From Henricia sp. BOLD:AAB3569 (lineage: Eukaryota > Echinodermata > Asteroidea > Spinulosida > Echinasteridae): a DNA stretch of 64,000 nucleotides. The notes under the pieces were generated by a model. The model was given only the letters and a program-made list of their open reading frames with translations, did not search any database and was not told where the DNA came from. This document shows, piece after piece, positions 1 to 64,000 of this stretch (the first letter of the stretch is position 1; the number at the start of each line of letters is the position of its first letter). The stretch spans positions 186,001 through 250,000 of the forward strand of contig JBBELK010000492.1 of NCBI GenBank assembly GCA_037783545.1, in the 5' to 3' direction. Made by a program: the position numbers and the translations under genes.

Positions 1-85
1 TTTTGGTTGAGCGTCACCTTCTTTTCGGCACCCTCTGCGCGGAATTATCCGAATTAGCCGAACATTTAGTCCGCACTTTCGAACA
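1..85 (+). other. Partial spacer S3 of the preceding unit
   Basis: The window opens inside S3, at the position equivalent to base 594 of unit 1, and runs to the first GCC gene. The TCC gene before it is outside the window. No gene is seen in it. Confidence 0.95.
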
Positions 86-92
86 GCACCGG

Positions 93-104
93 TGGTTCAG
101 TGGT
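93..104 (+). promoter_or_regulatory. Internal Pol III A box (GCC gene of unit 1)
   Basis: TGGTTCAGTGGT covers the D arm and matches the eukaryotic A-box pattern TRGYNNARNNGG. It binds TFIIIC together with the B box. The same 12 bases occur at the same offset in the CCC gene (267-278) and TCC gene (469-480), and in nearly all other copies. Exceptions lie at D-arm variants in units 27, 34, 49, 65, 68, 70, 73, 74 and 90. Confidence 0.85.
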
Positions 105-134
105 AGAATTCTCGCCTGCCACGCGGGAGGCCCG

Positions 135-145
135 GGTTCGATTCC
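135..145 (+). promoter_or_regulatory. Internal Pol III B box (GCC gene of unit 1)
   Basis: GGTTCGATTCC spans the T stem-loop and fits the B-box consensus GGTTCRANYCC. In the CCC (309-319) and TCC (511-521) genes the purine is A: GGTTCAATTCC. Sixteen TCC genes and one GCC gene (12742) carry GGTACRATTCC instead, losing the invariant T55. Confidence 0.88.
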
Positions 146-156
146 CGGCCGGTGCA

Positions 157-259
157 GATTGTTATAGATTCATTGTTTGACAGTTTTCTTGCAGGAGTAG
201 TTTTACTTCAAGTGGGAATATGCCCGCAACCAAAATCTCACTTCCAGCTTTTCTCGGGT
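157..259 (+). other. Spacer S1 (GCC to CCC), representative copy
   Basis: 103 nt. It holds the T4 terminator of the GCC gene and the 5' flank of the CCC gene. Its last ~40 nt align with the last ~40 nt of S2 (both have a CAACC-CAAAAT block, then a pyrimidine-rich stretch ending just before GCATTGG). Its first half matches neither S2 nor S3. No ORF or other RNA gene is evident. Confidence 0.9.
184..187 (+). terminator. Pol III T4 terminator after tRNA-Gly(GCC)
   Basis: First run of four T after the GCC gene, giving a 27-nt 3' trailer before the run. Minimal length for a vertebrate Pol III stop. It is kept in essentially every copy of S1. Confidence 0.75.
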
Positions 260-330
260 GCATTGGTGGTTCAGTGGTAGAATTCTCGCCTCCCACGCGG
301 GAGACCCGGGTTCAATTCCCGGCCAATGCA
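260..330 (+). tRNA. tRNA-Gly(CCC)
   Basis: Unit 1; reference copy. Decodes GGG. Acceptor GCATTGG pairs with CCAATGC. The anticodon loop CTCCCAC holds anticodon CCC at 292-294, the variable loop is AGAC and the T loop TTCAATT. It differs from the GCC gene only at 4, 5, 34, 46, 57, 68 and 69. It matches from memory the common vertebrate tRNA-Gly(CCC). Confidence 0.98.
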
Positions 331-461
331 AACTGACTGGTTTCCGTACTTTGCTGGACTCCAAAATACGTTTTATAGAAATGGCTGTCTTTTGGTTGAG
401 CGTCACCTTCAATGTTTCCATTCACCTGCAACCCAAAATTCCCTCCGCTATTTCTCCAGTT
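331..461 (+). other. Spacer S2 (CCC to TCC), representative copy
   Basis: 131 nt. Its first ~80 nt align with the first ~80 nt of S3, best at 375-410 against 579-614 (36 bp, one mismatch). Its last ~40 nt align with the end of S1. S2 therefore looks like a join of a CCC-type 3' flank and a CCC-type 5' flank, as expected if the CCC and TCC genes are tandem duplicates. Confidence 0.88.
371..374 (+). terminator. Pol III T4 terminator after tRNA-Gly(CCC)
   Basis: First T4 after the CCC gene, with a 40-nt trailer. Unit 13 has T5 here (the +1 base). A second T4 follows at 390-393; in units 67 and 72 that one is T6 (40806-40811 in unit 67). Confidence 0.7.
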
Positions 462-532
462 GCATTGGTGGTTCAGTGGTAGAATTCTCGCCTTCCAAGC
501 GGGAGACCCGGGTTCAATTCCCGGCTAATGCA
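462..532 (+). tRNA. tRNA-Gly(TCC)
   Basis: Unit 1; reference copy. Decodes GGA (and GGG by wobble). Loop CTTCCAA holds anticodon TCC at 494-496. It differs from the CCC gene at only three positions: C34T, C38A and C67T, the last making a G6-U67 wobble in the acceptor. This is a CCC-type body, unlike the vertebrate tRNA-Gly(TCC) I remember, which has a different D arm and anticodon stem. Confidence 0.96.
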
Positions 533-678
533 AAATAGCGGGTTCCCTGTACTTTTCCAGACTAGAAAGAAACGTTTCATAGAAATGGCCGTCTTTTGGT
601 TGAGCGTCACCTTCTTTTCGGCACCCTCTGCGCGGAATTATCCGAATTAGCCGAACATTTAGTCCGCACTTTCGAACA
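533..678 (+). other. Spacer S3 (TCC to next GCC), representative copy
   Basis: 146 nt. The first half is homologous to S2. The second half (about 615-678), the 5' flank of the GCC gene, is unique to S3. Nothing else is recognised in it. Confidence 0.9.
553..556 (+). terminator. Pol III T4 terminator after tRNA-Gly(TCC)
   Basis: First T4 after the TCC gene, with a 20-nt trailer, the shortest of the three. In unit 12 a C-to-T change makes it T5. Confidence 0.72.
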
Positions 679-749
679 GCACCGGTGGTTCAGTGGTAGA
701 ATTCTCGCCTGCCACGCGGGAGGCCCGGGTTCGATTCCCGGCCGGTGCA
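679..749 (+). tRNA. tRNA-Gly(GCC)
   Basis: Unit 2, consensus. Confidence 0.97.
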
Positions 750-852
750 GATTGTTATAGATTCATTGTTTGACAGTTTTCTTGCAGGAGTAGTTTTACT
801 TCAAGTGGGAATATGCCCGCAACCAAAATCTCACTTCCAGCTTTTCTCGGGT

Positions 853-923
853 GCATTGGTGGTTCAGTGGTAGAATTCTCGCCTCCCACGCGGGAGACCC
901 GGGTTCAATTCCCGGCCAATGCA
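853..923 (+). tRNA. tRNA-Gly(CCC)
   Basis: Unit 2, consensus. Confidence 0.97.
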
Positions 924-1054
924 AACTGACTGGTTTCCGTACTTTGCTGGACTCCAAAATACGTTTTATAGAAATGGCTGTCTTTTGGTTGAGCGTCACC
1001 TTCAATGTTTCCATTCACCTGCAACCCAAAATTCCCTCCGCTATTTCTCCAGTT

Positions 1055-1125
1055 GCATTGGTGGTTCAGTGGTAGAATTCTCGCCTTCCAAGCGGGAGAC
1101 CCGGGTTCAATTCCCGGCTAATGCA
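1055..1125 (+). tRNA. tRNA-Gly(TCC)
   Basis: Unit 2, consensus. Confidence 0.96.
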
Positions 1126-1271
1126 AAATAGCGGGTTCCCTGTACTTTTCCAGACTAGAAAGAAACGTTTCATAGAAATGGCCGTCTTTTGGTTGAGCGT
1201 CACCTTCTTTTCGGCACCCTCTGCGCGGAATTATCCGAATTAGCCGAACATTTAGTCCGCACTTTCGAACA

Positions 1272-1342
1272 GCACCGGTGGTTCAGTGGTAGAATTCTCG
1301 CCTGCCACGCGGGAGGCCCGGGTTCGATTCCCGGCCGGTGCA
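1272..1342 (+). tRNA. tRNA-Gly(GCC)
   Basis: Unit 3, consensus. Confidence 0.97.
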
Positions 1343-1445
1343 GATTGTTATAGATTCATTGTTTGACAGTTTTCTTGCAGGAGTAGTTTTACTTCAAGTG
1401 GGAATATGCCCGCAACCAAAATCTCACTTCCAGCTTTTCTCGGGT

Positions 1446-1516
1446 GCATTGGTGGTTCAGTGGTAGAATTCTCGCCTCCCACGCGGGAGACCCGGGTTCA
1501 ATTCCCGGCCAATGCA
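1446..1516 (+). tRNA. tRNA-Gly(CCC)
   Basis: Unit 3, consensus. Confidence 0.97.
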
Positions 1517-1647
1517 AACTGACTGGTTTCCGTACTTTGCTGGACTCCAAAATACGTTTTATAGAAATGGCTGTCTTTTGGTTGAGCGTCACCTTCAATG
1601 TTTCCATTCACCTGCAACCCAAAATTCCCTCCGCTATTTCTCCAGTT

Positions 1648-1718
1648 GCATTGGTGGTTCAGTGGTAGAATTCTCGCCTTCCAAGCGGGAGACCCGGGTT
1701 CAATTCCCGGCTAATGCA
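1648..1718 (+). tRNA. tRNA-Gly(TCC)
   Basis: Unit 3, consensus. Confidence 0.96.
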
Positions 1719-1864
1719 AAATAGCGGGTTCCCTGTACTTTTCCAGACTAGAAAGAAACGTTTCATAGAAATGGCCGTCTTTTGGTTGAGCGTCACCTTC
1801 TTTTCGGCACCCTCTGCGCGGAATTATCCGAATTAGCCGAACATTTAGTCCGCACTTTCGAACA

Positions 1865-1935
1865 GCACCGGTGGTTCAGTGGTAGAATTCTCGCCTGCCA
1901 CGCGGGAGGCCCGGGTTCGATTCCCGGCCGGTGCA
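1865..1935 (+). tRNA. tRNA-Gly(GCC)
   Basis: Unit 4, consensus. Confidence 0.97.
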
Positions 1936-2038
1936 GATTGTTATAGATTCATTGTTTGACAGTTTTCTTGCAGGAGTAGTTTTACTTCAAGTGGGAATAT
2001 GCCCGCAACCAAAATCTCACTTCCAGCTTTTCTCGGGT

Positions 2039-2109
2039 GCATTGGTGGTTCAGTGGTAGAATTCTCGCCTCCCACGCGGGAGACCCGGGTTCAATTCCCG
2101 GCCAATGCA
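2039..2109 (+). tRNA. tRNA-Gly(CCC)
   Basis: Unit 4, consensus. Confidence 0.97.
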
Positions 2110-2240
2110 AACTGACTGGTTTCCGTACTTTGCTGGACTCCAAAATACGTTTTATAGAAATGGCTGTCTTTTGGTTGAGCGTCACCTTCAATGTTTCCAT
2201 TCACCTGCAACCCAAAATTCCCTCCGCTATTTCTCCAGTT

Positions 2241-2311
2241 GCATTGGTGGTTCAGTGGTAGAATTCTCGCCTTCCAAGCGGGAGACCCGGGTTCAATTCC
2301 CGGCTAATGCA
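2241..2311 (+). tRNA. tRNA-Gly(TCC)
   Basis: Unit 4, consensus. Confidence 0.96.
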
Positions 2312-2457
2312 AAATAGCGGGTTCCCTGTACTTTTCCAGACTAGAAAGAAACGTTTCATAGAAATGGCCGTCTTTTGGTTGAGCGTCACCTTCTTTTCGG
2401 CACCCTCTGCGCGGAATTATCCGAATTAGCCGAACATTTAGTCCGCACTTTCGAACA

Positions 2458-2528
2458 GCACCGGTGGTTCAGTGGTAGAATTCTCGCCTGCCACGCGGGA
2501 GGCCCGGGTTCGATTCCCGGCCGGTGCA
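2458..2528 (+). tRNA. tRNA-Gly(GCC)
   Basis: Unit 5, consensus. Confidence 0.97.
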
Positions 2529-2631
2529 GATTGTTATAGATTCATTGTTTGACAGTTTTCTTGCAGGAGTAGTTTTACTTCAAGTGGGAATATGCCCGCA
2601 ACCAAAATCTCACTTCCAGCTTTTCTCGGGT

Positions 2632-2702
2632 GCATTGGTGGTTCAGTGGTAGAATTCTCGCCTCCCACGCGGGAGACCCGGGTTCAATTCCCGGCCAATG
2701 CA
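2632..2702 (+). tRNA. tRNA-Gly(CCC)
   Basis: Unit 5, consensus. Confidence 0.97.
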
Positions 2703-2833
2703 AACTGACTGGTTTCCGTACTTTGCTGGACTCCAAAATACGTTTTATAGAAATGGCTGTCTTTTGGTTGAGCGTCACCTTCAATGTTTCCATTCACCTG
2801 CAACCCAAAATTCCCTCCGCTATTTCTCCAGTT

Positions 2834-2904
2834 GCATTGGTGGTTCAGTGGTAGAATTATCGCCTTCCAAGCGGGAGACCCGGGTTCAATTCCCGGCTAA
2901 TGCA
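2834..2904 (+). tRNA. tRNA-Gly(TCC), C27A
   Basis: Unit 5. C27A replaces the first anticodon-stem pair C27-G43 with A-G. Shared with unit 9, four units away. Confidence 0.88.
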
Positions 2905-3050
2905 AAATAGCGGGTTCCCTGTACTTTTCCAGACTAGAAAGAAACGTTTCATAGAAATGGCCGTCTTTTGGTTGAGCGTCACCTTCTTTTCGGCACCCTC
3001 TGCGCGGAATTATCCGAATTAGCCGAACATTTAGTCCGCACTTTCGAACA

Positions 3051-3121
3051 GCACCGGTGGTTCAGTGGTAGAATTCTCGCCTGCCACGCGGGAGGCCCGG
3101 GTTCGATTCCCGGCCGGTGCA
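3051..3121 (+). tRNA. tRNA-Gly(GCC)
   Basis: Unit 6, consensus. Confidence 0.97.
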
Positions 3122-3224
3122 GATTGTTATAGATTCATTGTTTGACAGTTTTCTTGCAGGAGTAGTTTTACTTCAAGTGGGAATATGCCCGCAACCAAAA
3201 TCTCACTTCCAGCTTTTCTCGGGT

Positions 3225-3295
3225 GCATTGGTGGTTCAGTGGTAGAATTCTCGCCTCCCACGCGGGAGACCCGGGTTCAATTCCCGGCCAATGCA
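3225..3295 (+). tRNA. tRNA-Gly(CCC)
   Basis: Unit 6, consensus. Confidence 0.97.
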
Positions 3296-3426
3296 AACTG
3301 ACTGGTTTCCGTACTTTGCTGGACTCCAAAATACGTTTTATAGAAATGGCTGTCTTTTGGTTGAGCGTCACCTTCAATGTTTCCATTCACCTGCAACCCA
3401 AAATTCCCTCCGCTATTTCTCCAGTT

Positions 3427-3497
3427 GCATTGGTGGTTCAGTGGTAGAATTCTCGCCTTCCAAGCGGGAGACCCGGGTTCAATTCCCGGCTAATGCA
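3427..3497 (+). tRNA. tRNA-Gly(TCC)
   Basis: Unit 6, consensus. Confidence 0.96.
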
Positions 3498-3643
3498 AAA
3501 TAGCGGGTTCCCTGTACTTTTCCAGACTAGAAAGAAACGTTTCATAGAAATGGCCGTCTTTTGGTTGAGCGTCACCTTCTTTTCGGCACCCTCTGCGCGG
3601 AATTATCCGAATTAGCCGAACATTTAGTCCGCACTTTCGAACA

Positions 3644-3714
3644 GCACCGGTGGTTCAGTGGTAGAATTCTCGCCTGCCACGCGGGAGGCCCGGGTTCGAT
3701 TCCCGGCCGGTGCA
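3644..3714 (+). tRNA. tRNA-Gly(GCC)
   Basis: Unit 7, consensus. Confidence 0.97.
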
Positions 3715-3817
3715 GATTGTTATAGATTCATTGTTTGACAGTTTTCTTGCAGGAGTAGTTTTACTTCAAGTGGGAATATGCCCGCAACCAAAATCTCACT
3801 TCCAGCTTTTCTCGGGT

Positions 3818-3888
3818 GCATTGGTGGTTCAGTGGTAGAATTCTCGCCTCCCACGCGGGAGACCCGGGTTCAATTCCCGGCCAATGCA
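3818..3888 (+). tRNA. tRNA-Gly(CCC)
   Basis: Unit 7, consensus. Confidence 0.97.
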
Positions 3889-4019
3889 AACTGACTGGTT
3901 TCCGTACTTTGCTGGACTCCAAAATACGTTTTATAGAAATGGCTGTCTTTTGGTTGAGCGTCACCTTCAATGTTTCCATTCACCTGCAACCCAAAATTCC
4001 CTCCGCTATTTCTCCAGTT

Positions 4020-4090
4020 GCATTGGTGGTTCAGTGGTAGAATTCTCGCCTTCCAAGCGGGAGACCCGGGTTCAATTCCCGGCTAATGCA
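4020..4090 (+). tRNA. tRNA-Gly(TCC)
   Basis: Unit 7, consensus. Confidence 0.96.
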
Positions 4091-4236
4091 AAATAGCGGG
4101 TTCCCTGTACTTTTCCAGACTAGAAAGAAACGTTTCATAGAAATGGCCGTCTTTTGGTTGAGCGTCACCTTCTTTTCGGCACCCTCTGCGCGGAATTATC
4201 CGAATTAGCCGAACATTTAGTCCGCACTTTCGAACA

Positions 4237-4307
4237 GCACCGGTGGTTCAGTGGTAGAATTCTCGCCTGCCACGCGGGAGGCCCGGGTTCGATTCCCGGC
4301 CGGTGCA
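4237..4307 (+). tRNA. tRNA-Gly(GCC)
   Basis: Unit 8, consensus. Confidence 0.97.
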
Positions 4308-4410
4308 GATTGTTATAGATTCATTGTTTGACAGTTTTCTTGCAGGAGTAGTTTTACTTCAAGTGGGAATATGCCCGCAACCAAAATCTCACTTCCAGCT
4401 TTTCTCGGGT

Positions 4411-4481
4411 GCATTGGTGGTTCAGTGGTAGAATTCTCGCCTCCCACGCGGGAGACCCGGGTTCAATTCCCGGCCAATGCA
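4411..4481 (+). tRNA. tRNA-Gly(CCC)
   Basis: Unit 8, consensus. Confidence 0.97.
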
Positions 4482-4612
4482 AACTGACTGGTTTCCGTAC
4501 TTTGCTGGACTCCAAAATACGTTTTATAGAAATGGCTGTCTTTTGGTTGAGCGTCACCTTCAATGTTTCCATTCACCTGCAACCCAAAATTCCCTCCGCT
4601 ATTTCTCCAGTT

Positions 4613-4683
4613 GCATTGGTGGTTCAGTGGTAGAATTCTCGCCTTCCAAGCGGGAGACCCGGGTTCAATTCCCGGCTAATGCA
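4613..4683 (+). tRNA. tRNA-Gly(TCC)
   Basis: Unit 8, consensus. Confidence 0.96.
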
Positions 4684-4829
4684 AAATAGCGGGTTCCCTG
4701 TACTTTTCCAGACTAGAAAGAAACGTTTCATAGAAATGGCCGTCTTTTGGTTGAGCGTCACCTTCTTTTCGGCACCCTCTGCGCGGAATTATCCGAATTA
4801 GCCGAACATTTAGTCCGCACTTTCGAACA

Positions 4830-4900
4830 GCACCGGTGGTTCAGTGGTAGAATTCTCGCCTGCCACGCGGGAGGCCCGGGTTCGATTCCCGGCCGGTGCA
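4830..4900 (+). tRNA. tRNA-Gly(GCC)
   Basis: Unit 9, consensus. Confidence 0.97.
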
Positions 4901-5003
4901 GATTGTTATAGATTCATTGTTTGACAGTTTTCTTGCAGGAGTAGTTTTACTTCAAGTGGGAATATGCCCGCAACCAAAATCTCACTTCCAGCTTTTCTCG
5001 GGT

Positions 5004-5074
5004 GCATTGGTGGTTCAGTGGTAGAATTCTCGCCTCCCACGCGGGAGACCCGGGTTCAATTCCCGGCCAATGCA
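5004..5074 (+). tRNA. tRNA-Gly(CCC)
   Basis: Unit 9, consensus. Confidence 0.97.
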
Positions 5075-5205
5075 AACTGACTGGTTTCCGTACTTTGCTG
5101 GACTCCAAAATACGTTTTATAGAAATGGCTGTCTTTTGGTTGAGCGTCACCTTCAATGTTTCCATTCACCTGCAACCCAAAATTCCCTCCGCTATTTCTC
5201 CAGTT

Positions 5206-5276
5206 GCATTGGTGGTTCAGTGGTAGAATTATCGCCTTCCAAGCGGGAGACCCGGGTTCAATTCCCGGCTAATGCA
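5206..5276 (+). tRNA. tRNA-Gly(TCC), C27A
   Basis: Unit 9. Same C27A as unit 5. Confidence 0.88.
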
Positions 5277-5422
5277 AAATAGCGGGTTCCCTGTACTTTT
5301 CCAGACTAGAAAGAAACGTTTCATAGAAATGGCCGTCTTTTGGTTGAGCGTCACCTTCTTTTCGGCACCCTCTGCGCGGAATTATCCGAATTAGCCGAAC
5401 ATTTAGTCCGCACTTTCGAACA

Positions 5423-5493
5423 GCACCGGTGGTTCAGTGGTAGAATTCTCGCCTGCCACGCGGGAGGCCCGGGTTCGATTCCCGGCCGGTGCA
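5423..5493 (+). tRNA. tRNA-Gly(GCC)
   Basis: Unit 10, consensus. Confidence 0.97.
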
Positions 5494-5596
5494 GATTGTT
5501 ATAGATTCATTGTTTGACAGTTTTCTTGCAGGAGTAGTTTTACTTCAAGTGGGAATATGCCCGCAACCAAAATCTCACTTCCAGCTTTTCTCGGGT

Positions 5597-5667
5597 GCAT
5601 TGGTGGTTCAGTGGTAGAATTCTCGCCTCCCACGCGGGAGACCCGGGTTCAATTCCCGGCCAATGCA
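5597..5667 (+). tRNA. tRNA-Gly(CCC)
   Basis: Unit 10, consensus. Confidence 0.97.
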
Positions 5668-5798
5668 AACTGACTGGTTTCCGTACTTTGCTGGACTCCA
5701 AAATACGTTTTATAGAAATGGCTGTCTTTTGGTTGAGCGTCACCTTCAATGTTTCCATTCACCTGCAACCCAAAATTCCCTCCGCTATTTCTCCAGTT

Positions 5799-5869
5799 GC
5801 ATTGGTGGTTCAGTGGTAGAATTCTCGCCTTCCAAGCGGGAGACCCGGGTTCAATTCCCGGCTAATGCA
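5799..5869 (+). tRNA. tRNA-Gly(TCC)
   Basis: Unit 10, consensus. Confidence 0.96.
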
Positions 5870-6015
5870 AAATAGCGGGTTCCCTGTACTTTTCCAGACT
5901 AGAAAGAAACGTTTCATAGAAATGGCCGTCTTTTGGTTGAGCGTCACCTTCTTTTCGGCACCCTCTGCGCGGAATTATCCGAATTAGCCGAACATTTAGT
6001 CCGCACTTTCGAACA

Positions 6016-6086
6016 GCACCGGTGGTTCAGTGGTAGAATTCTCGCCTGCCACGCGGGAGGCCCGGGTTCGATTCCCGGCCGGTGCA
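6016..6086 (+). tRNA. tRNA-Gly(GCC)
   Basis: Unit 11, consensus. Confidence 0.97.
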
Positions 6087-6189
6087 GATTGTTATAGATT
6101 CATTGTTTGACAGTTTTCTTGCAGGAGTAGTTTTACTTCAAGTGGGAATATGCCCGCAACCAAAATCTCACTTCCAGCTTTTCTCGGGT

Positions 6190-6260
6190 GCATTGGTGGT
6201 TCAGTGGTAGAATTCTCGCCTCCCACGCGGGAGACCCGGGTTCAATTCCCGGCCAATGCA
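6190..6260 (+). tRNA. tRNA-Gly(CCC)
   Basis: Unit 11, consensus. Confidence 0.97.
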
Positions 6261-6391
6261 AACTGACTGGTTTCCGTACTTTGCTGGACTCCAAAATACG
6301 TTTTATAGAAATGGCTGTCTTTTGGTTGAGCGTCACCTTCAATGTTTCCATTCACCTGCAACCCAAAATTCCCTCCGCTATTTCTCCAGTT

Positions 6392-6462
6392 GCATTGGTG
6401 GTTCAGTGGTAGAATTCTCGCCTTCCAAGCGGGAGACCCGGGTTCAATTCCCGGCTAATGCA
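6392..6462 (+). tRNA. tRNA-Gly(TCC)
   Basis: Unit 11, consensus. Confidence 0.96.
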
Positions 6463-6608
6463 AAATAGCGGGTTCCCTGTACTTTTCCAGACTAGAAAGA
6501 AACGTTTCATAGAAATGGCCGTCTTTTGGTTGAGCGTCACCTTCTTTTCGGCACCCTCTGCGCGGAATTATCCGAATTAGCCGAACATTTAGTCCGCACT
6601 TTCGAACA

Positions 6609-6679
6609 GCACCGGTGGTTCAGTGGTAGAATTCTCGCCTGCCACGCGGGAGGCCCGGGTTCGATTCCCGGCCGGTGCA
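6609..6679 (+). tRNA. tRNA-Gly(GCC)
   Basis: Unit 12, consensus. Confidence 0.97.
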
Positions 6680-6782
6680 GATTGTTATAGATTCATTGTT
6701 TGACAGTTTTCTTGCAGGAGTAGTTTTACTTCAAGTGGGAATATGCCCGCAACCAAAATCTCACTTCCAGCTTTTCTCGGGT

Positions 6783-6853
6783 GCATTGGTGGTTCAGTGG
6801 TAGAATTCTCGCCTCCCACGCGGGAGACCCGGGTTCAATTCCCGGCCAATGCA
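6783..6853 (+). tRNA. tRNA-Gly(CCC)
   Basis: Unit 12, consensus. Confidence 0.97.
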
Positions 6854-6984
6854 AACTGACTGGTTTCCGTACTTTGCTGGACTCCAAAATACGTTTTATA
6901 GAAATGGCTGTCTTTTGGTTGAGCGTCACCTTCAATGTTTCCATTCACCTGCAACCCAAAATTCCCTCCGCTATTTCTCCAGTT

Positions 6985-7055
6985 GCATTGGTGGTTCAGT
7001 GGTAGAATTCTCGCCTTCCAAGCGGGAGACCCGGGTTCAATTCCCGGCTAATGCA
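6985..7055 (+). tRNA. tRNA-Gly(TCC)
   Basis: Unit 12, consensus body; its terminator is T5 instead of T4. Confidence 0.96.
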
Positions 7056-7201
7056 AAATAGCGGGTTCCCTGTACTTTTTCAGACTAGAAAGAAACGTTT
7101 CATAGAAATGGCCGTCTTTTGGTTGAGCGTCACCTTCTTTTCGGCACCCTCTGCGCGGAATTATCCGAATTAGCCGAACATTTAGTCCGCACTTTCGAAC
7201 A

Positions 7202-7272
7202 GCACCGGTGGTTCAGTGGTAGAATTCTCGCCTGCCACGCGGGAGGCCCGGGTTCGATTCCCGGCCGGTGCA
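7202..7272 (+). tRNA. tRNA-Gly(GCC)
   Basis: Unit 13, consensus. Confidence 0.97.
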
Positions 7273-7375
7273 GATTGTTATAGATTCATTGTTTGACAGT
7301 TTTCTTGCAGGAGTAGTTTTACTTCAAGTGGGAATATGCCCGCAACCAAAATCTCACTTCCAGCTTTTCTCGGGT

Positions 7376-7446
7376 GCATTGGTGGTTCAGTGGTAGAATT
7401 CTCGCCTCCCACGCGGGAGACCCGGGTTCAATTCCCGGCCAATGCA
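7376..7446 (+). tRNA. tRNA-Gly(CCC)
   Basis: Unit 13, consensus body; one extra T makes its terminator T5. Confidence 0.97.
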
Positions 7447-7578
7447 AACTGACTGGTTTCCGTACTTTGCTGGACTCCAAAATACGTTTTTATAGAAATG
7501 GCTGTCTTTTGGTTGAGCGTCACCTTCAATGTTTCCATTCACCTGCAACCCAAAATTCCCTCCGCTATTTCTCCAGTT

Positions 7579-7649
7579 GCATTGGTGGTTCAGTGGTAGA
7601 ATTCTCGCCTTCCAAGCGGGAGACCCGGGTTCAATTCCCGGCTAATGCA
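7579..7649 (+). tRNA. tRNA-Gly(TCC)
   Basis: Unit 13, consensus; spacing from CCC is 203. Confidence 0.96.
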
Positions 7650-56287: not shown

Positions 56288-56358
56288 GCATTGGTGGTTC
56301 AGTGGTAGAATTCTCGCCTCCCACGCGGGAGACCCGGGTTCAATTCCCGGCGAATGCA
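56288..56358 (+). tRNA. tRNA-Gly(CCC), C67G
   Basis: Unit 93. C67G breaks acceptor pair G6-C67. Shared with units 99 and 104. Confidence 0.84.
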
Positions 56359-56489
56359 AACTGACTGGTTTCCGTACTTTGCTGGACTCCAAAATACGTT
56401 TTATAGAAATGGCTGTCTTTTGGTTGAGCGTCACCTTCAATGTTTCCATTCACCTGCAACCCAAAATTCCCTCCGCTATTTCTCCAGTT

Positions 56490-56560
56490 GCATTGGTGGT
56501 TCAGTGGTAGAATTCTCGCCTTCCAAGCGGGAGACCCGGGTTCAATTCCCGGCTAATGCA
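56490..56560 (+). tRNA. tRNA-Gly(TCC)
   Basis: Unit 93, consensus. Confidence 0.96.
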
Positions 56561-56706
56561 AAATAGCGGGTTCCCTGTACTTTTCCAGACTAGAAAGAAA
56601 CGTTTCATAGAAATGGCCGTCTTTTGGTTGAGCGTCACCTTCTTTTCGGCACCCTCTGCGCGGAATTATCCGAATTAGCCGAACATTTAGTCAGCACTTT
56701 CGAACA

Positions 56707-56777
56707 GCACCGGTGGTTCAGTGGTAGAATTCTCGCCTGCCACGCGGGAGGCCCGGGTTCGATTCCCGGCCGGTGCA
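56707..56777 (+). tRNA. tRNA-Gly(GCC)
   Basis: Unit 94, consensus. Confidence 0.97.
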
Positions 56778-56880
56778 GATTGTTATAGATTCATTGTTTG
56801 ACAGTTTTCTTGCAGGAGTAGTTTTACTTCAAGTGGGAATATGCCCGCAACCAAAATCTCACTTCTAGCTTTTCTCGGGT

Positions 56881-56951
56881 GCATTGGTGGTTCAGTGGTA
56901 GAATTCTCGCCTTCCACGCGGGAGACCCGGGTTCAATTCCCGGCCAATGCA
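56881..56951 (+). tRNA. tRNA-Gly(TCC) at the CCC position (C34T)
   Basis: Unit 94. The anticodon loop is CTTCCAC: anticodon TCC at 56913-56915, but C38 and the 3' strand CCAATGC remain CCC-type. This is a one-base C34T switch of a CCC gene, not a conversion by the neighbouring TCC gene, which has A38 and T67. This unit has no CCC gene. Confidence 0.93.
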
Positions 56952-57082
56952 AACTGACTGGTTTCCGTACTTTGATGGACTCCAAAATACGTTTTATAGA
57001 AATGGCTGTCTTTTGGTTGAGCGTCACCTTCAATGTTTCCATTCACCTGCAACCCAAAATTCCCTCCGCTATTTCTCCAGTT

Positions 57083-57153
57083 GCATTGGTGGTTCAGTGG
57101 TAGAATTCTGGCCTTCCAAGCGGGAGACCCGGGTTCAATTCCCGGCTAATGCA
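57083..57153 (+). tRNA. tRNA-Gly(TCC), C29G
   Basis: Unit 94. C29G breaks the anticodon-stem pair C29-G41. Shared with units 100 and 105, where it also sits next to the switched middle gene. Confidence 0.84.
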
Positions 57154-57299
57154 AAATAGCGGGTTCCCTGTACTTTTCCAGACTAGAAAGAAACGTTTCA
57201 TAGAAATGGCCGTCTTTTGGTTGAGCGTCACCTTCTTTTCGGCACCCTCTGCGCGGAATTATCCGAATTAGCCGAACATTTAGTCCGCACTTTCGAACA

Positions 57300-57370
57300 G
57301 CACCGGTGGTTCAGTGGTAGAATTCTCGCCTGCCACGCGGGAGGCCCGGGTTCGATTCCCGGCCGGTGCA
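57300..57370 (+). tRNA. tRNA-Gly(GCC)
   Basis: Unit 95, consensus. Confidence 0.97.
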
Positions 57371-57473
57371 GATTGTTATAGATTCATTGTTTGACAGTTT
57401 TCTTGCAGGAGTAGTTTTACTTCAAGTGGGAATATGCCCGCAACCAAAATCTCACTTCTAGCTTTTCTCGGGT

Positions 57474-57544
57474 GCATTGGTGGTTCAGTGGTAGAATTCT
57501 CGCCTCCCACGCGGGAGACCCGGGTTCAATTCCCGGCCAATGCA
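57474..57544 (+). tRNA. tRNA-Gly(CCC)
   Basis: Unit 95, consensus. Confidence 0.97.
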
Positions 57545-57675
57545 AACTGACTGGTTTCCGTACTTTGCTGGACTCCAAAATACGTTTTATAGAAATGGCT
57601 GTCTTTTGGTTGAGCGTCACCTTCAATGTTTCCATTCACCTGCAACCCAAAATTCCCTCCGCTATTTCTCCAGTT

Positions 57676-57746
57676 GCATTGGTGGTTCAGTGGTAGAATT
57701 CTCGCCTTCCAAGCGGGAGACCCGGGTTCAATTCCCGGCTAATGCA
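57676..57746 (+). tRNA. tRNA-Gly(TCC)
   Basis: Unit 95, consensus. Confidence 0.96.
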
Positions 57747-57892
57747 AAATAGCGGGTTCCCTGTACTTTTCCAGACTAGAAAGAAACGTTTCATAGAAAT
57801 GGCCGTCTTTTGGTTGAGCGTCACCTTCTTTTCGGCACCCTCTGCGCGGAATTATCCGAATTAGCCGAACATTTAGTCCGCACTTTCGAACA

Positions 57893-57963
57893 GCACCGGT
57901 GGTTCAGTGGTAGAATTCTCGCCTGCCACGCGGGAGGCCCGGGTTCGATTCCCGGCCGGTGCA
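57893..57963 (+). tRNA. tRNA-Gly(GCC)
   Basis: Unit 96, consensus. Confidence 0.97.
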
Positions 57964-58066
57964 GATTGTTATAGATTCATTCTTTGACAGTTTTCTTGCA
58001 GGAGTAGTTTTACTTCAAGTGGGAATATGCCCGCAACCAAAATCTCACTTCTAGCTTTTCTCGGGT

Positions 58067-58137
58067 GCATTGGTGGTTCAGTGGTAGAATTATCGCCTCC
58101 CACGCGGGAGACCCGGGTTCAATTCCCGGCCAATGCA
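58067..58137 (+). tRNA. tRNA-Gly(CCC), C27A
   Basis: Unit 96. C27A breaks the outer anticodon-stem pair. Shared with unit 102. Confidence 0.88.
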
Positions 58138-58268
58138 AACTGACTCGTTTCCGTACTTTGCTGGACTCCAAAATACGTTTTATAGAAATGGCTGTCTTTT
58201 GGTTTAGCGTCACCTTCAATGTTTCCATTCACCTGCAACCCAAAATTCCCTCCGCTATTTCTCCAGTT

Positions 58269-58339
58269 GCATTGGTGGTTCAGTGGTAGAATTCTCGCCT
58301 TCCAAGCGGGAGACCCGGGTTCAATTCCCGGCTAATGCA
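58269..58339 (+). tRNA. tRNA-Gly(TCC)
   Basis: Unit 96, consensus. Confidence 0.96.
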
Positions 58340-58485
58340 AAATAGCGGGTTCCCTGTACTTTTCCAGACTAGAAAGAAACGTTTCATAGAAATGGCCGTC
58401 TTTTGGTTGAGCGTCACCTTCTTTTCGGCACCCTCTGCGCGGAATTATCCGAATTAGCCGAACATTTAGTCCGCACTTTTGAACA

Positions 58486-58557
58486 GCACCGGTGGTTCAG
58501 TGGTAGAATTCTCGCCTGCCACGCGGGAGGCCAGAGGTTCGATTCCCGGCCGGTGCA
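58486..58557 (+). pseudogene. tRNA-Gly(GCC) pseudogene
   Basis: Unit 97. At the start of the T arm GGCCCGGG is replaced by GGCCAGAGG, adding one base (72 nt). Only the two T-stem pairs next to the loop remain; the other three are lost. Acceptor, D arm and anticodon GCC are unchanged and the B box reads GGTTCGATTCC, so it could still be transcribed, but the product should not fold normally. Confidence 0.8.
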
Positions 58558-58660
58558 GATTGTTATAGATTCATTGTTTGACAGTTTTCTTGCAGGAGTA
58601 GTTTTACTTCAAGTGGGAATATGCCCGCAACCAAAATCTCACTTCTAGCTTTTCTCGGGT

Positions 58661-58731
58661 GCATTGGTGGTTCAGTGGTAGAATTCTCGCCTCCCACGCG
58701 GGAGACCCGGGTTCAATTTCCGGCCAATGCA
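58661..58731 (+). tRNA. tRNA-Gly(CCC), C61T
   Basis: Unit 97. C61T gives a G53-T61 wobble, at a pair that is normally an invariant G-C. Confidence 0.85.
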
Positions 58732-58862
58732 AACTGACTGGTTTCCGTACTTTGCTGGACTCCAAAATACGTTTTATAGAAATGGCTGTCTTTTGGTTGA
58801 GCGTCACCTTCAATGTTTCCATTCACCTGCAACCCAAAATTCCCTCCGCTATTTCTCCAGTT

Positions 58863-58933
58863 GCATTGGTGGTTCAGTGGTAGAATTCTCGCCTTCCAAG
58901 CGGGAGACCCGGGTTCAATTCCCGGCTAATGCA
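58863..58933 (+). tRNA. tRNA-Gly(TCC)
   Basis: Unit 97, consensus. Confidence 0.96.
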
Positions 58934-59079
58934 AAATAGCGGGTTCCCTGTACTTTTCCAGACTAGAAAGAAACGTTTCATAGAAATGGCCGTCTTTTGG
59001 TTGAGCGTCACCTTCTTTTCGGCACCCTCTGCGCGGAATTATCAGAATTAGCCGAACATTTAGTCCGCACTTTCGAACA

Positions 59080-59150
59080 GCACCGGTGGTTCAGTGGTAG
59101 AATTCTCGCCTGCCACGCGGGAGGCCCGGGTTCGATTCCCGGCCGGTGCA
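59080..59150 (+). tRNA. tRNA-Gly(GCC)
   Basis: Unit 98, consensus. Confidence 0.97.
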
Positions 59151-59253
59151 GATTGTTATAGATTCATTGTTTGACAGTTTTCTTGCAGGAGTAGTTTTAC
59201 TTCAAGTGGGAATATGCCCGCAACCAAAATCTCACTTCTTGCTTTTCTCGGGT

Positions 59254-59324
59254 GCATTGGTGGTTCAGTGGTAGAATTCTCGCCTCCCACGCGGGAGACC
59301 CGGGTTCAATTCCCGGCCAATGCA
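59254..59324 (+). tRNA. tRNA-Gly(CCC)
   Basis: Unit 98, consensus. Confidence 0.97.
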
Positions 59325-59455
59325 AACTGACTGGTTTCCGTACTTTGCTGGACTCCAAAATACGTTTTATACAAATGGCTGTCTTTTGGTTGAGCGTCAC
59401 CTTCAATGTTTCCATTCACCTGCAACCCAAAATTCCCTCCGCTATTTCTCCAGTT

Positions 59456-59526
59456 GCATTGGTGGTTCAGTGGTAGAATTCTCGCCTTCCAAGCGGGAGA
59501 CCCGGGTTCAATTCCCGGCTAATGCA
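59456..59526 (+). tRNA. tRNA-Gly(TCC)
   Basis: Unit 98, consensus. Confidence 0.96.
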
Positions 59527-59672
59527 AAATAGCGGGTTCCCTGTACTTTTCCAGACTAGAAAGAAACGTTTCATAGAAATGGCCGTCTTTTGGTTGAGCG
59601 TCACCTTCTTTTCGGCACCCTCTGCGCGGAATTATCCGAATTAGCCGAACATTTAGTCCGCACTTTCGAACA

Positions 59673-59743
59673 GCACCGGTGGTTCAGTGGTAGAATTCTC
59701 GCCTGCCACGCGGGAGGCCCGGGTTCGATTCCCGGCCGGTGCA
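59673..59743 (+). tRNA. tRNA-Gly(GCC)
   Basis: Unit 99, consensus. Confidence 0.97.
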
Positions 59744-59846
59744 GATTGTTATAGATTCATTGTTTGACAGTTTTCTTGCAGGAGTAGTTTTACTTCAAGT
59801 GGGAATATGCCTGCAACCAAAATCTCACTTCTAGCTTTTCTCGGGT

Positions 59847-59917
59847 GCATTGGTGGTTCAGTGGTAGAATTCTCGCCTCCCACGCGGGAGACCCGGGTTC
59901 AATTCCCGGCGAATGCA
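59847..59917 (+). tRNA. tRNA-Gly(CCC), C67G
   Basis: Unit 99. C67G, as in unit 93. Confidence 0.84.
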
Positions 59918-60048
59918 AACTGACTGGTTTCCGTACTTTGCTGGACTCCAAAATACGTTTTATAGAAATGGCTGTCTTTTGGTTGAGCGTCACCTTCAAT
60001 GTTTCCATTCACCTGCAACCCAAAATTCCCTCCGCTATTTCTCCAGTT

Positions 60049-60119
60049 GCATTGGTGGTTCAGTGGTAGAATTCTCGCCTTCCAAGCGGGAGACCCGGGT
60101 TCAATTCCCGGCTAATGCA
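60049..60119 (+). tRNA. tRNA-Gly(TCC)
   Basis: Unit 99, consensus. Confidence 0.96.
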
Positions 60120-60265
60120 AAATAGCGGGTTCCCTGTACTTTTCCAGACTAGAAAGAAACGTTTCATAGAAATGGCCGTCTTTTGGTTGAGCGTCACCTT
60201 CTTTTCGGCACCCTCTGCGCGGAATTATCCGAATTAGCCGAACATTTAGTCAGCACTTTCGAACA

Positions 60266-60336
60266 GCACCGGTGGTTCAGTGGTAGAATTCTCGCCTGCC
60301 ACGCGGGAGGCCCGGGTTCGATTCCCGGCCGGTGCA
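60266..60336 (+). tRNA. tRNA-Gly(GCC)
   Basis: Unit 100, consensus. Confidence 0.97.
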
Positions 60337-60439
60337 GATTGTTATAGATTCATTGTTTGACAGTTTTCTTGCAGGAGTAGTTTTACTTCAAGTGGGAATA
60401 TGCCCGCAACCAAAATCTCACTTCTAGCTTTTCTCGGGT

Positions 60440-60510
60440 GCATTGGTGGTTCAGTGGTAGAATTCTCGCCTTCCACGCGGGAGACCCGGGTTCAATTCCC
60501 GGCCAATGCA
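60440..60510 (+). tRNA. tRNA-Gly(TCC) at the CCC position (C34T)
   Basis: Unit 100. Same switched gene as in unit 94. Confidence 0.93.
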
Positions 60511-60641
60511 AACTGACTGGTTTCCGTACTTTGATGGACTCCAAAATACGTTTTATAGAAATGGCTGTCTTTTGGTTGAGCGTCACCTTCAATGTTTCCA
60601 TTCACCTGCAACCCAAAATTCCCTCCGCTATTTCTCCAGTT

Positions 60642-60712
60642 GCATTGGTGGTTCAGTGGTAGAATTCTGGCCTTCCAAGCGGGAGACCCGGGTTCAATTC
60701 CCGGCTAATGCA
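60642..60712 (+). tRNA. tRNA-Gly(TCC), C29G
   Basis: Unit 100. C29G. Confidence 0.84.
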
Positions 60713-60858
60713 AAATAGCGGGTTCCCTGTACTTTTCCAGACTAGAAAGAAACGTTTCATAGAAATGGCCGTCTTTTGGTTGAGCGTCACCTTCTTTTCG
60801 GCACCCTCTGCGCGGAATTATCCGAATTAGCCGAACATTTAGTCCGCACTTTCGAACA

Positions 60859-60929
60859 GCACCGGTGGTTCAGTGGTAGAATTCTCGCCTGCCACGCGGG
60901 AGGCCCGGGTTCGATTCCCGGCCGGTGCA
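60859..60929 (+). tRNA. tRNA-Gly(GCC)
   Basis: Unit 101, consensus. Confidence 0.97.
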
Positions 60930-61032
60930 GATTGTTATAGATTCATTGTTTGACAGTTTTCTTGCAGGAGTAGTTTTACTTCAAGTGGGAATATGCCCGC
61001 AACCAAAATCTCACTTCTAGCTTTTCTCGGGT

Positions 61033-61103
61033 GCATTGGTGGTTCAGTGGTAGAATTCTCGCCTCCCACGCGGGAGACCCGGGTTCAATTCCCGGCCAAT
61101 GCA
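61033..61103 (+). tRNA. tRNA-Gly(CCC)
   Basis: Unit 101, consensus. Confidence 0.97.
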
Positions 61104-61234
61104 AACTGACTGGTTTCCGTACTTTGCTGGACTCCAAAATACGTTTTATAGAAATGGCTGTCTTTTGGTTGAGCGTCACCTTCAATGTTTCCATTCACCT
61201 GCAACCCAAAATTCCCTCCGCTATTTCTCCAGTT

Positions 61235-61305
61235 GCATTGGTGGTTCAGTGGTAGAATTCTCGCCTTCCAAGCGGGAGACCCGGGTTCAATTCCCGGCTA
61301 ATGCA
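61235..61305 (+). tRNA. tRNA-Gly(TCC)
   Basis: Unit 101, consensus. Confidence 0.96.
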
Positions 61306-61451
61306 AAATAGCGGGTTCCCTGTACTTTTCCAGACTAGAAAGAAACGTTTCATAGAAATGGCCGTCTTTTGGTTGAGCGTCACCTTCTTTTCGGCACCCT
61401 CTGCGCGGAATTATCCGAATTAGCCGAACATTTAGTCCGCACTTTCGAACA

Positions 61452-61522
61452 GCACCGGTGGTTCAGTGGTAGAATTCTCGCCTGCCACGCGGGAGGCCCG
61501 GGTTCGATTCCCGGCCGGTGCA
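61452..61522 (+). tRNA. tRNA-Gly(GCC)
   Basis: Unit 102, consensus. Confidence 0.97.
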
Positions 61523-61625
61523 GATTGTTATAGATTCATTCTTTGACAGTTTTCTTGCAGGAGTAGTTTTACTTCAAGTGGGAATATGCCCGCAACCAAA
61601 ATCTCACTTCTAGCTTTTCTCGGGT

Positions 61626-61696
61626 GCATTGGTGGTTCAGTGGTAGAATTATCGCCTCCCACGCGGGAGACCCGGGTTCAATTCCCGGCCAATGCA
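61626..61696 (+). tRNA. tRNA-Gly(CCC), C27A
   Basis: Unit 102. C27A, as in unit 96. Confidence 0.88.
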
Positions 61697-61827
61697 AACT
61701 CACTCGTTTCCGTACTTTGCTGGACTCCAAAATACGTTTTATAGAAATGGCTGTCTTTTGGTTTAGCGTCACCTTCAATGTTTCCATTCACCTGCAACCC
61801 AAAATTCCCTCCGCTATTTCTCCAGTT

Positions 61828-61898
61828 GCATTGGTGGTTCAGTGGTAGAATTCTCGCCTTCCAAGCGGGAGACCCGGGTTCAATTCCCGGCTAATGCA
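61828..61898 (+). tRNA. tRNA-Gly(TCC)
   Basis: Unit 102, consensus. Confidence 0.96.
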
Positions 61899-62044
61899 AA
61901 ATAGCGGGTTCCCTGTACTTTTCCAGACTAGAAAGAAACGTTTCATAGAAATGGCCGTCTTTTGGTTGAGCGTCACCTTCTTTTCGGCACCCTCTGCGCG
62001 GAATTATCAGAATTAGCCGAACATTTAGTCCGCACTTTCGAACA

Positions 62045-62115
62045 GCACCGGTGGTTCAGTGGTAGAATTCTCGCCTGCCACGCGGGAGGCCCGGGTTCGA
62101 TTCCCGGCCGGTGCA
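62045..62115 (+). tRNA. tRNA-Gly(GCC)
   Basis: Unit 103, consensus. Confidence 0.97.
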
Positions 62116-62218
62116 GATTGTTATAGATTCATTGTTTGACAGTTTTCTTGCAGGAGTAGTTTTACTTCAAGTGGGAATATGCCCGCAACCAAAATCTCAC
62201 TTCTTGCTTTTCTCGGGT

Positions 62219-62289
62219 GCATTGGTGGTTCAGTGGTAGAATTCTCGCCTCCCACGCGGGAGACCCGGGTTCAATTCCCGGCCAATGCA
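62219..62289 (+). tRNA. tRNA-Gly(CCC)
   Basis: Unit 103, consensus. Confidence 0.97.
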
Positions 62290-62420
62290 AACTGACTGGT
62301 TTCCGTACTTTGCTGGACTCCAAAATACGTTTTATACAAATGGCTGTCTTTTGGTTGAGCGTCACCTTCAATGTTTCCATTCACCTGCAACCCAAAATTC
62401 CCTCCGCTATTTCTCCAGTT

Positions 62421-62491
62421 GCATTGGTGGTTCAGTGGTAGAATTCTCGCCTTCCAAGCGGGAGACCCGGGTTCAATTCCCGGCTAATGCA
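62421..62491 (+). tRNA. tRNA-Gly(TCC)
   Basis: Unit 103, consensus. Confidence 0.96.
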
Positions 62492-62637
62492 AAATAGCGG
62501 GTTCCCTGTACTTTTCCAGACTAGAAAGAAACGTTTCATAGAAATGGCCGTCTTTTGGTTGAGCGTCACCTTCTTTTCGGCACCCTCTGCGCGGAATTAT
62601 CCGAATTAGCCGAACATTTAGTCCGCACTTTCGAACA

Positions 62638-62708
62638 GCACCGGTGGTTCAGTGGTAGAATTCTCGCCTGCCACGCGGGAGGCCCGGGTTCGATTCCCGG
62701 CCGGTGCA
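62638..62708 (+). tRNA. tRNA-Gly(GCC)
   Basis: Unit 104, consensus. Confidence 0.97.
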
Positions 62709-62811
62709 GATTGTTATAGATTCATTGTTTGACAGTTTTCTTGCAGGAGTAGTTTTACTTCAAGTGGGAATATGCCTGCAACCAAAATCTCACTTCTAGC
62801 TTTTCTCGGGT

Positions 62812-62882
62812 GCATTGGTGGTTCAGTGGTAGAATTCTCGCCTCCCACGCGGGAGACCCGGGTTCAATTCCCGGCGAATGCA
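62812..62882 (+). tRNA. tRNA-Gly(CCC), C67G
   Basis: Unit 104. C67G. Confidence 0.84.
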
Positions 62883-63013
62883 AACTGACTGGTTTCCGTA
62901 CTTTGCTGGACTCCAAAATACGTTTTATAGAAATGGCTGTCTTTTGGTTGAGCGTCACCTTCAATGTTTCCATTCACCTGCAACCCAAAATTCCCTCCGC
63001 TATTTCTCCAGTT

Positions 63014-63084
63014 GCATTGGTGGTTCAGTGGTAGAATTCTCGCCTTCCAAGCGGGAGACCCGGGTTCAATTCCCGGCTAATGCA
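63014..63084 (+). tRNA. tRNA-Gly(TCC)
   Basis: Unit 104, consensus. Confidence 0.96.
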
Positions 63085-63230
63085 AAATAGCGGGTTCCCT
63101 GTACTTTTCCAGACTAGAAAGAAACGTTTCATAGAAATGGCCGTCTTTTGGTTGAGCGTCACCTTCTTTTCGGCACCCTCTGCGCGGAATTATCCGAATT
63201 AGCCGAACATTTAGTCAGCACTTTCGAACA

Positions 63231-63301
63231 GCACCGGTGGTTCAGTGGTAGAATTCTCGCCTGCCACGCGGGAGGCCCGGGTTCGATTCCCGGCCGGTGC
63301 A
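63231..63301 (+). tRNA. tRNA-Gly(GCC)
   Basis: Unit 105, consensus. Confidence 0.97.
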
Positions 63302-63404
63302 GATTGTTATAGATTCATTGTTTGACAGTTTTCTTGCAGGAGTAGTTTTACTTCAAGTGGGAATATGCCCGCAACCAAAATCTCACTTCTAGCTTTTCTC
63401 GGGT

Positions 63405-63475
63405 GCATTGGTGGTTCAGTGGTAGAATTCTCGCCTTCCACGCGGGAGACCCGGGTTCAATTCCCGGCCAATGCA
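63405..63475 (+). tRNA. tRNA-Gly(TCC) at the CCC position (C34T)
   Basis: Unit 105. Same switched gene as in units 94 and 100. Confidence 0.93.
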
Positions 63476-63606
63476 AACTGACTGGTTTCCGTACTTTGAT
63501 GGACTCCAAAATACGTTTTATAGAAATGGCTGTCTTTTGGTTGAGCGTCACCTTCAATGTTTCCATTCACCTGCAACCCAAAATTCCCTCCGCTATTTCT
63601 CCAGTT

Positions 63607-63677
63607 GCATTGGTGGTTCAGTGGTAGAATTCTGGCCTTCCAAGCGGGAGACCCGGGTTCAATTCCCGGCTAATGCA
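63607..63677 (+). tRNA. tRNA-Gly(TCC), C29G
   Basis: Unit 105. C29G. Confidence 0.84.
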
Positions 63678-63823
63678 AAATAGCGGGTTCCCTGTACTTT
63701 TCCAGACTAGAAAGAAACGTTTCATAGAAATGGCCGTCTTTTGGTTGAGCGTCACCTTCTTTTCGGCACCCTCTGCGCGGAATTATCCGAATTAGCCGAA
63801 CATTTAGTCCGCACTTTCGAACA

Positions 63824-63894
63824 GCACCGGTGGTTCAGTGGTAGAATTCTCGCCTGCCACGCGGGAGGCCCGGGTTCGATTCCCGGCCGGTGCA
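63824..63894 (+). tRNA. tRNA-Gly(GCC)
   Basis: Unit 106, consensus; last complete gene. Confidence 0.97.
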
Positions 63895-63997
63895 GATTGT
63901 TATAGATTCATTGTTTGACAGTTTTCTTGCAGGAGTAGTTTTACTTCAAGTGGGAATATGCCCGCAACCAAAATCTCACTTCTAGCTTTTCTCGGGT

Positions 63998-64000
63998 GCA
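63998..64000 (+). tRNA. tRNA-Gly(CCC), first 3 bases only
   Basis: Unit 106. The window ends after GCA; identity is inferred from the preceding S1 and the array period. Confidence 0.6.

Follow-up and report, generated by a model that had tools for sequence, protein, structure and literature searches.

A tandem array of tRNA-Gly genes built from a cassette of all three glycine isoacceptors in the sea star Henricia sp.

Does a long, uninterrupted run of glycine transfer RNA (tRNA) genes in a sea star genome represent a working supply of tRNA, or satellite-like DNA that happens to be made of genes? The question is raised by a stretch of 64,000 nucleotides from Henricia sp. BOLD:AAB3569 (contig JBBELK010000492.1 of assembly GCA_037783545.1, positions 186,001 to 250,000), referred to below as the window. 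The whole of it (1–64000, + strand) is a tandem array in which ARAGORN predicts 324 tRNA genes, every one on the + strand, including 323 tRNA-Gly and a single tRNA-Arg(CCT). A direct search across the window with a 27-base gene core, allowing up to four substitutions, also returns 324 matches on the + strand, and there are none on the − strand even with up to six substitutions; the count of about 324 tRNA-Gly genes in a first-pass annotation is thus borne out. The genes are regularly spaced, and a chance model is therefore unnecessary. In an Rfam scan of positions 1–1900, which hold nine of the 324 genes, all nine match RF00005 at 65.4–66.9 bits (gathering score 29); no other family in this segment rises above its gathering score at a loose threshold, and the weaker matches overlap the tRNA genes. 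The locus thus consists of many head-to-tail copies of a unit with intact predicted tRNA genes, as in a tandem tRNA gene array. Both ends fall inside a unit and run off the window, so 64 kb is a minimum length.

Distances between successive genes (n = 323) are 174 bp (108 times), 202 bp (106 times) and 217 bp (104 times), with five odd values. The usual unit of 593 bp is made of three monomers, each a 71-base tRNA gene with the spacer downstream of it (GCC, 174 bp; CCC, 202 bp; TCC, 217 bp), and about 105 units lie within the window. One example is the consensus unit at 86–678, of which there are only 26 exact copies; it contains a GCC gene (86–156; acceptor stem GCACCGG/CCGGTGC), a CCC gene (260–330; GCATTGG/CCAATGC) and a TCC gene (462–532), all 71 bases long and, like every feature described below, on the + strand. 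The anticodon tally is 111 GCC, 111 TCC, 101 CCC and one CCT. The three glycine isoacceptors do share a cassette on a single strand, as the first-pass annotation had it, and its statement that glycine alone is represented holds for 323 of the 324 genes. The departure, at 15288–15358 (ARAGORN call at 15287), is a point mutant of the CCC gene with C35T (71-base count) that is read as Arg(CCT). The further statement that the genes are "always in the same order" was too strong: the regular GCC-CCC-TCC order is found in 95 of the 106 segments that begin with GCC. Three segments have an extra TCC gene (GCC-CCC-TCC-TCC), three have TCC at the CCC place (GCC-TCC-TCC), two have a doubled and one a fourfold GCC (five extra genes altogether), one has CCT instead of CCC, and one is cut by the window end. 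Two spacers have changed in length: the one behind the GCC gene at 19858 has gained six bases, and the one behind the CCC gene at 50759 has lost 10. The mean monomer of ~198 bp (593/3) is close to the nucleosome repeat length, which may be a coincidence.

Three of 71 bases distinguish the CCC and TCC genes. They lie at the first position of the anticodon, at the last position of the anticodon loop, and in the acceptor, where the base of the TCC gene gives a G-U pair. All three differences are compatible with the cloverleaf. Homology extends through the first 80 bases of the two spacers (67 matches, 13 mismatches and 2 gaps), the genes being identical at 68 of 71 positions against the 67 spacer matches (Fisher p = 0.018). 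Because so few bases separate the genes and the spacers are homologous as well, the most likely origin of the pair is a duplication and a later shift of the anticodon, a type of change that is well known between tRNA genes (PMC7884595; this and the other papers cited here are drawn on in excerpt). The GCC gene differs from the CCC gene at seven of 71 bases, four of which make up two compensatory acceptor-stem pairs, and its spacer is no more similar to the CCC and TCC spacers than the best of 200 shuffles. When the three consensus genes are placed on the cloverleaf every stem pair is standard, with anticodons GCC, CCC and TCC and A73 in place. Since the differences between gene types all keep the cloverleaf, they point to selection on function having shaped the three genes before amplification. 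The gene bodies presumably resemble those of other animals; we take the CCC gene to be identical to a human tRNA-Gly(CCC), and the usual animal tRNA-Gly(TCC) body to be different, in which case the TCC gene would be a new isodecoder. In three CCC genes, at 56881, 60440 and 63405, the first of these two changes in the anticodon loop is present without the second. They represent a single event copied by block duplication, because all three share a second variant and sit in a repeated block (see below). They may resemble a first step of the CCC to TCC shift.

There are eight hybrid monomers, and the diagnostic bases put every breakpoint inside the tRNA body. Three are TCC/CCC hybrids. One of these, at 12323–12393, is an extra gene with a TCC-type 5′ part and a CCC-type 3′ end and spacer, and fits a crossover within the tRNA body. 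The others are at 34748–34818 and 52730–52800; because the first of these carries T53A and the other two TCC/CCC hybrids do not, we infer that the event recurred or that conversion came later. The five CCC/GCC hybrids include three in succession at 20038–20456, with a GCATT 5′ end and a GCC anticodon and 3′ end, and single copies at 21746–21816 and 26070–26140. All five share C47A, and may therefore trace to one event.

Larger segments have been copied too, as duplicated blocks some four to six units long. One example is the block at 39694–45031, in which variants at 39694–41473 reappear in the same order at 42659–44438, a step of 2965 bp (five units), with the second copy one unit shorter at its end. 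In a second example (56114–64000) a block is repeated at a step of 3559 bp (six units) and then of 2965 bp (five units); besides the variants that they share, its copies have private ones, such as G76C, present only at 61626. Across the window, 57 of 98 steps between neighbouring occurrences of a repeated variant equal 3, 9, 15 or 18 monomers (1, 3, 5 or 6 units). Variants are absent from 189 of the 323 aligned monomers and at least one is present in the other 134 (here and in the substitution and disruption counts the last of the 324, cut by the window end, is omitted). The first 12 kb (1–12000) are nearly uniform, with nine variants in the 61 monomers that start there and 53 of these variant-free, compared with 136 of 262 elsewhere. 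Variant number increases along the window (Spearman 0.30, p = 3e-8, for copies that are not independent), and the increase is uneven, peaking first at about 16–24 kb and a second time past 52 kb. Such a distribution would follow from unequal exchange and a recent regrowth of the left end. Exact self-matches were tested at steps around 13 selected multiples of the unit length; the longest of them, at a step of 2372 bp, spans 4220 bp and lies close to the left end. The share of variant-free monomers, the sharing of variants at regular steps and the block duplications together display concerted evolution between units, within one species.

The same variants bear on whether individual genes are under constraint. 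Distinct substitutions, counted after removal of the bases that mark hybrids (which were kept in the per-monomer counts above), number 38 in the 213 tRNA positions and 50 in the 380 spacer positions (p = 0.15). Transversions are abundant among them, transitions accounting for only 37 of 88 (C>T 23, G>A 5, T>C 5, A>G 4), and G>C changes outnumber C>G by 10 to 3. At base-specific rates taken from the spacers 32.5 tRNA variants are expected and 39 observed (p = 0.15), the larger count adding T53A in the hybrid at 34748, where it was perhaps inherited from a TCC gene. We scored as disruptive any variant that breaks a stem pair or changes the anticodon or a near-invariant base; 31 of 39 tRNA variants are of this kind compared to 62% by chance (p = 0.02, in the direction of more disruption), or 30 of 38 when the hybrid T53A is excluded. 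In the number of copies reached, disruptive and spacer variants are alike (p = 0.90). When the anticodon is set aside, 29 of the 37 changes found within the array count as disruptive, versus none of the six between gene types (p = 0.0005; the six were counted by hand, each compensatory pair as one). The commonest disruptive variant is T53A, which lies in both the T loop and the B box and is found in 16 of 108 TCC-type genes, a count that includes one hybrid; the base affected is presumably the one that becomes psi55. Altogether a disruptive change is present in 67 of the 323 genes (32 TCC, 23 GCC and 12 CCC), and 256 are free of one. Purifying selection on single present copies was thus not detected in the 323 monomers, either from tRNA versus spacer variants or from the disruptive share. 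Selection seems to have shaped the three genes and does not act visibly on single copies. The copies look redundant, because the tRNA bodies have no deficit of variants, most of their variants are disruptive and T53A is so widespread.

Signals for transcription by RNA polymerase III (Pol III) are well represented, with an A-box consensus in 318 of the 324 genes, a B-box consensus in 304, and a first TTTT 20–41 bases downstream in all 324. The account that we consider probable is that a Pol III cassette of genes predicted to work has grown into a satellite-like array in which the copies are largely spare, the growth most likely being neutral or nearly so. A tRNA-Gly(CCC) gene and its downstream spacer would have been duplicated, the anticodon of one copy would have shifted to TCC, and the pair would then have been joined to a GCC gene to give a 593-bp cassette reading all four GGN codons. 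This cassette presumably spread head-to-tail through unequal exchange, of single units as well as of multi-unit blocks, with homogenisation apparently still under way. Damaging variants would spread through the same exchange as neutral ones because individual copies are redundant. Since about four-fifths of the genes have no disruptive change, and nearly all have A and B boxes and a TTTT, the array has a predicted capacity for transcription and could supply tRNA-Gly wherever its chromatin is open. Among four readings offered in the first-pass annotation (glycine tRNA demand, a source of tRNA-Gly fragments, a chromatin boundary and neutral satellite-like growth) the variant pattern favours the last, but as growth of a functional cassette, because purifying selection is undetected on present copies and yet most copies are undecayed.

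Several points weigh against this account. The evidence is the DNA sequence of one window in one species, and the failure to detect purifying selection rests on 88 distinct substitutions. Disruption was scored by a rule of our own and not by an assay. Repeated variants could include recurrent mutations, and the excess of damaging variants could stem from a mutation bias toward tRNA bodies. A distance of 20–41 bases behind the gene is rather far for a Pol III terminator. Lastly, when single genes are folded freely the cloverleaf is the best structure for the TCC gene and one TCC/CCC hybrid, while other structures come out ahead for the GCC and CCC genes and for a CCC/GCC hybrid, a result to which we attach little weight.

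An alternative is that the array was expanded and kept for dosage, either to serve a tissue or stage that makes much glycine-rich protein or to provide a burst of glycine tRNA in the egg or early embryo, and is perhaps silent elsewhere. We hold this as a tentative possibility. Every GGN codon is covered and 256 of 323 genes lack a predicted disruptive change. On the RNA-like strand C>T changes outnumber G>A by 23 to 5, where 15.4 of the 28 are expected (z = 2.93, one of six tests); the excess fits transcription-linked deamination, which germline transcription could cause, but replication may also give such a strand asymmetry. There is a precedent in the Ser-Tyr-Tyr (SYY) array of Arabidopsis, which is silent in most tissues and active in root cap cells, where its deletion alters a Ser/Tyr/Pro-rich protein (PMC12308677); by analogy, a mostly silent tandem tRNA array can be active and matter in a single cell type. 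The absence of detectable purifying selection on the copies counts against dosage, however, and the near-equal anticodon numbers do not resemble tuning to skewed codon use. In the oyster Ostrea edulis very many dispersed tRNA-Ser genes are accompanied by no rise in proteome serine (PMC9679248), which suggests that high tRNA copy number need not track amino-acid content. A literature search on silk and other glycine-rich demand gave no paper using the term tRNA-Gly among the matches listed. More tentative still is a specific form of this idea, in which all isoacceptors of one amino acid sit in one amplifiable cassette that is opened in a single tissue or stage of extreme glycine demand, the TCC member having been made by the anticodon shift and the supply of the whole codon box being set at one locus with several hundred genes.

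That the array is purely silent satellite DNA, with genes carried along and never transcribed, seems to us unlikely. The free spread of damaging variants, T53A among them, is what such DNA would show, and the intactness of most genes, which speaks against it, would also follow from recent amplification. However, a methylated silent satellite finds little support in the CpG pattern. CpG dinucleotides are not depleted (observed/expected 0.94), and the changes in a CpG context (5 of 23 C>T and 3 of 5 G>A, or 8 of 28) come near the proportion of C and G bases that lie in CpG (68 of 293). There is thus little mark of decay by germline methylation, which the host may simply lack.

That the array serves as a boundary or an architectural element, its densely packed TFIIIC sites insulating or anchoring part of a chromosome, is very improbable: B boxes do extend across 64 kb and such a role has been proposed for the human 1q23.3 array (PMC4041453), but the window is array throughout, without flanks in which a boundary could be seen, and the B box is altered in 16 of 108 TCC-type genes. 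Least likely of all is that the copy number is an assembly artefact, inflated or collapsed, since for all the long exact self-matches and the few markers in the first 12 kb, an assembler would not invent variants in 134 of 323 monomers or duplicated blocks that differ from one another. The length of the left part is uncertain, with collapse or inflation possible there.

The growth of a cassette of predicted working genes can be set beside known tandem tRNA arrays. Those of Entamoeba also have short units, homogenised by concerted evolution in the authors' view, and some units are devoted to one amino acid, including [Gly-GCC] and, except in E. invadens, [Gly-TCC]. There, however, tRNA-Gly(GCC) and tRNA-Gly(TCC) are in separate arrays, and tRNA-Gly(CCC) is marked #, which we take to mean that it is not arrayed (PMC2652664). 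Short tandem repeats lie between the Entamoeba genes, whereas the Henricia spacers have none, Tandem Repeats Finder (minimum score 50) giving only the 174- and 202-bp monomer repeats. The human 1q23.3 variable number tandem repeat is likewise an animal array with tRNA-Gly in its unit and a variable copy number, but its 7.3-kb unit carries Leu, two Gly, Glu and Asp genes on both strands in 9–43 units per allele (PMC4041453), compared with 593 bp, glycine only, one strand and about 105 units in the window here. The Arabidopsis SYY array shares a three-gene unit grown by tandem duplication; it differs in serving two amino acids, in having 27 units, in being methylated, and in that its expression and deletion have been studied (PMC12308677, PMC12652284). 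Besides its 27 Tyr-Tyr-Ser units Arabidopsis has 27 Pro genes, and clusters in plants can be as large as 110 genes (PMC12652284).

Among animals, Nematostella and teleost fishes have tRNA clusters of at least 50 genes, and nearly all tRNA pairs in zebrafish and Xenopus are parallel, as in Henricia; pairs in Nematostella, the clawed frog and zebrafish are, however, mostly of different amino acids (PMC2888827). In drosophilids, Tetrahymena and Monosiga same-amino-acid pairs predominate, and the excerpted account describes no unit of the Henricia kind (PMC2888827). The claim that the make-up is unusual therefore holds by comparison with the mixed or one-gene units of Entamoeba, human 1q23.3 and Arabidopsis, and is weakened by the same-amino-acid neighbours of these latter groups. 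A limited open-access search, with the older Xenopus papers outside it, found no one-amino-acid cassette of all isoacceptors repeated about 105 times in tandem. The array looks unusual and adds a new make-up to the known tandem tRNA arrays, with an earlier description of the cassette possible.

In organisation the array is also like alpha satellite-type higher-order repeats, in which unlike monomers make up a unit and homogenisation acts on the entire unit; the difference is that each Henricia monomer carries a predicted working gene. The unit has no match among plasmid sequences, a 24-base spacer pattern has none in a collection of genome contigs, and the 27-base tRNA core has none in viral contigs. 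A 17-base spacer pattern matched 11 viral contigs; BLAST matches of these to the unit extend over only 12–33 bases (20 rows, 8 of the 11 loci), and we treated them as chance and not as relatives.

The Henricia array is real, large and well preserved, and the evolution of a multigene tRNA family is naturally recorded in it. It displays the step from a CCC to a TCC isoacceptor, including CCC genes with only the first anticodon-loop change, what look like crossovers within tRNA bodies, and a spread of damaging variants under copy redundancy. Use in a glycine-hungry tissue or stage is possible, and is the reading most worth testing. If the array is expressed, the supply of a whole codon box would be changeable at one locus, and the array would allow the idea that demand governs tRNA copy number to be tested directly.

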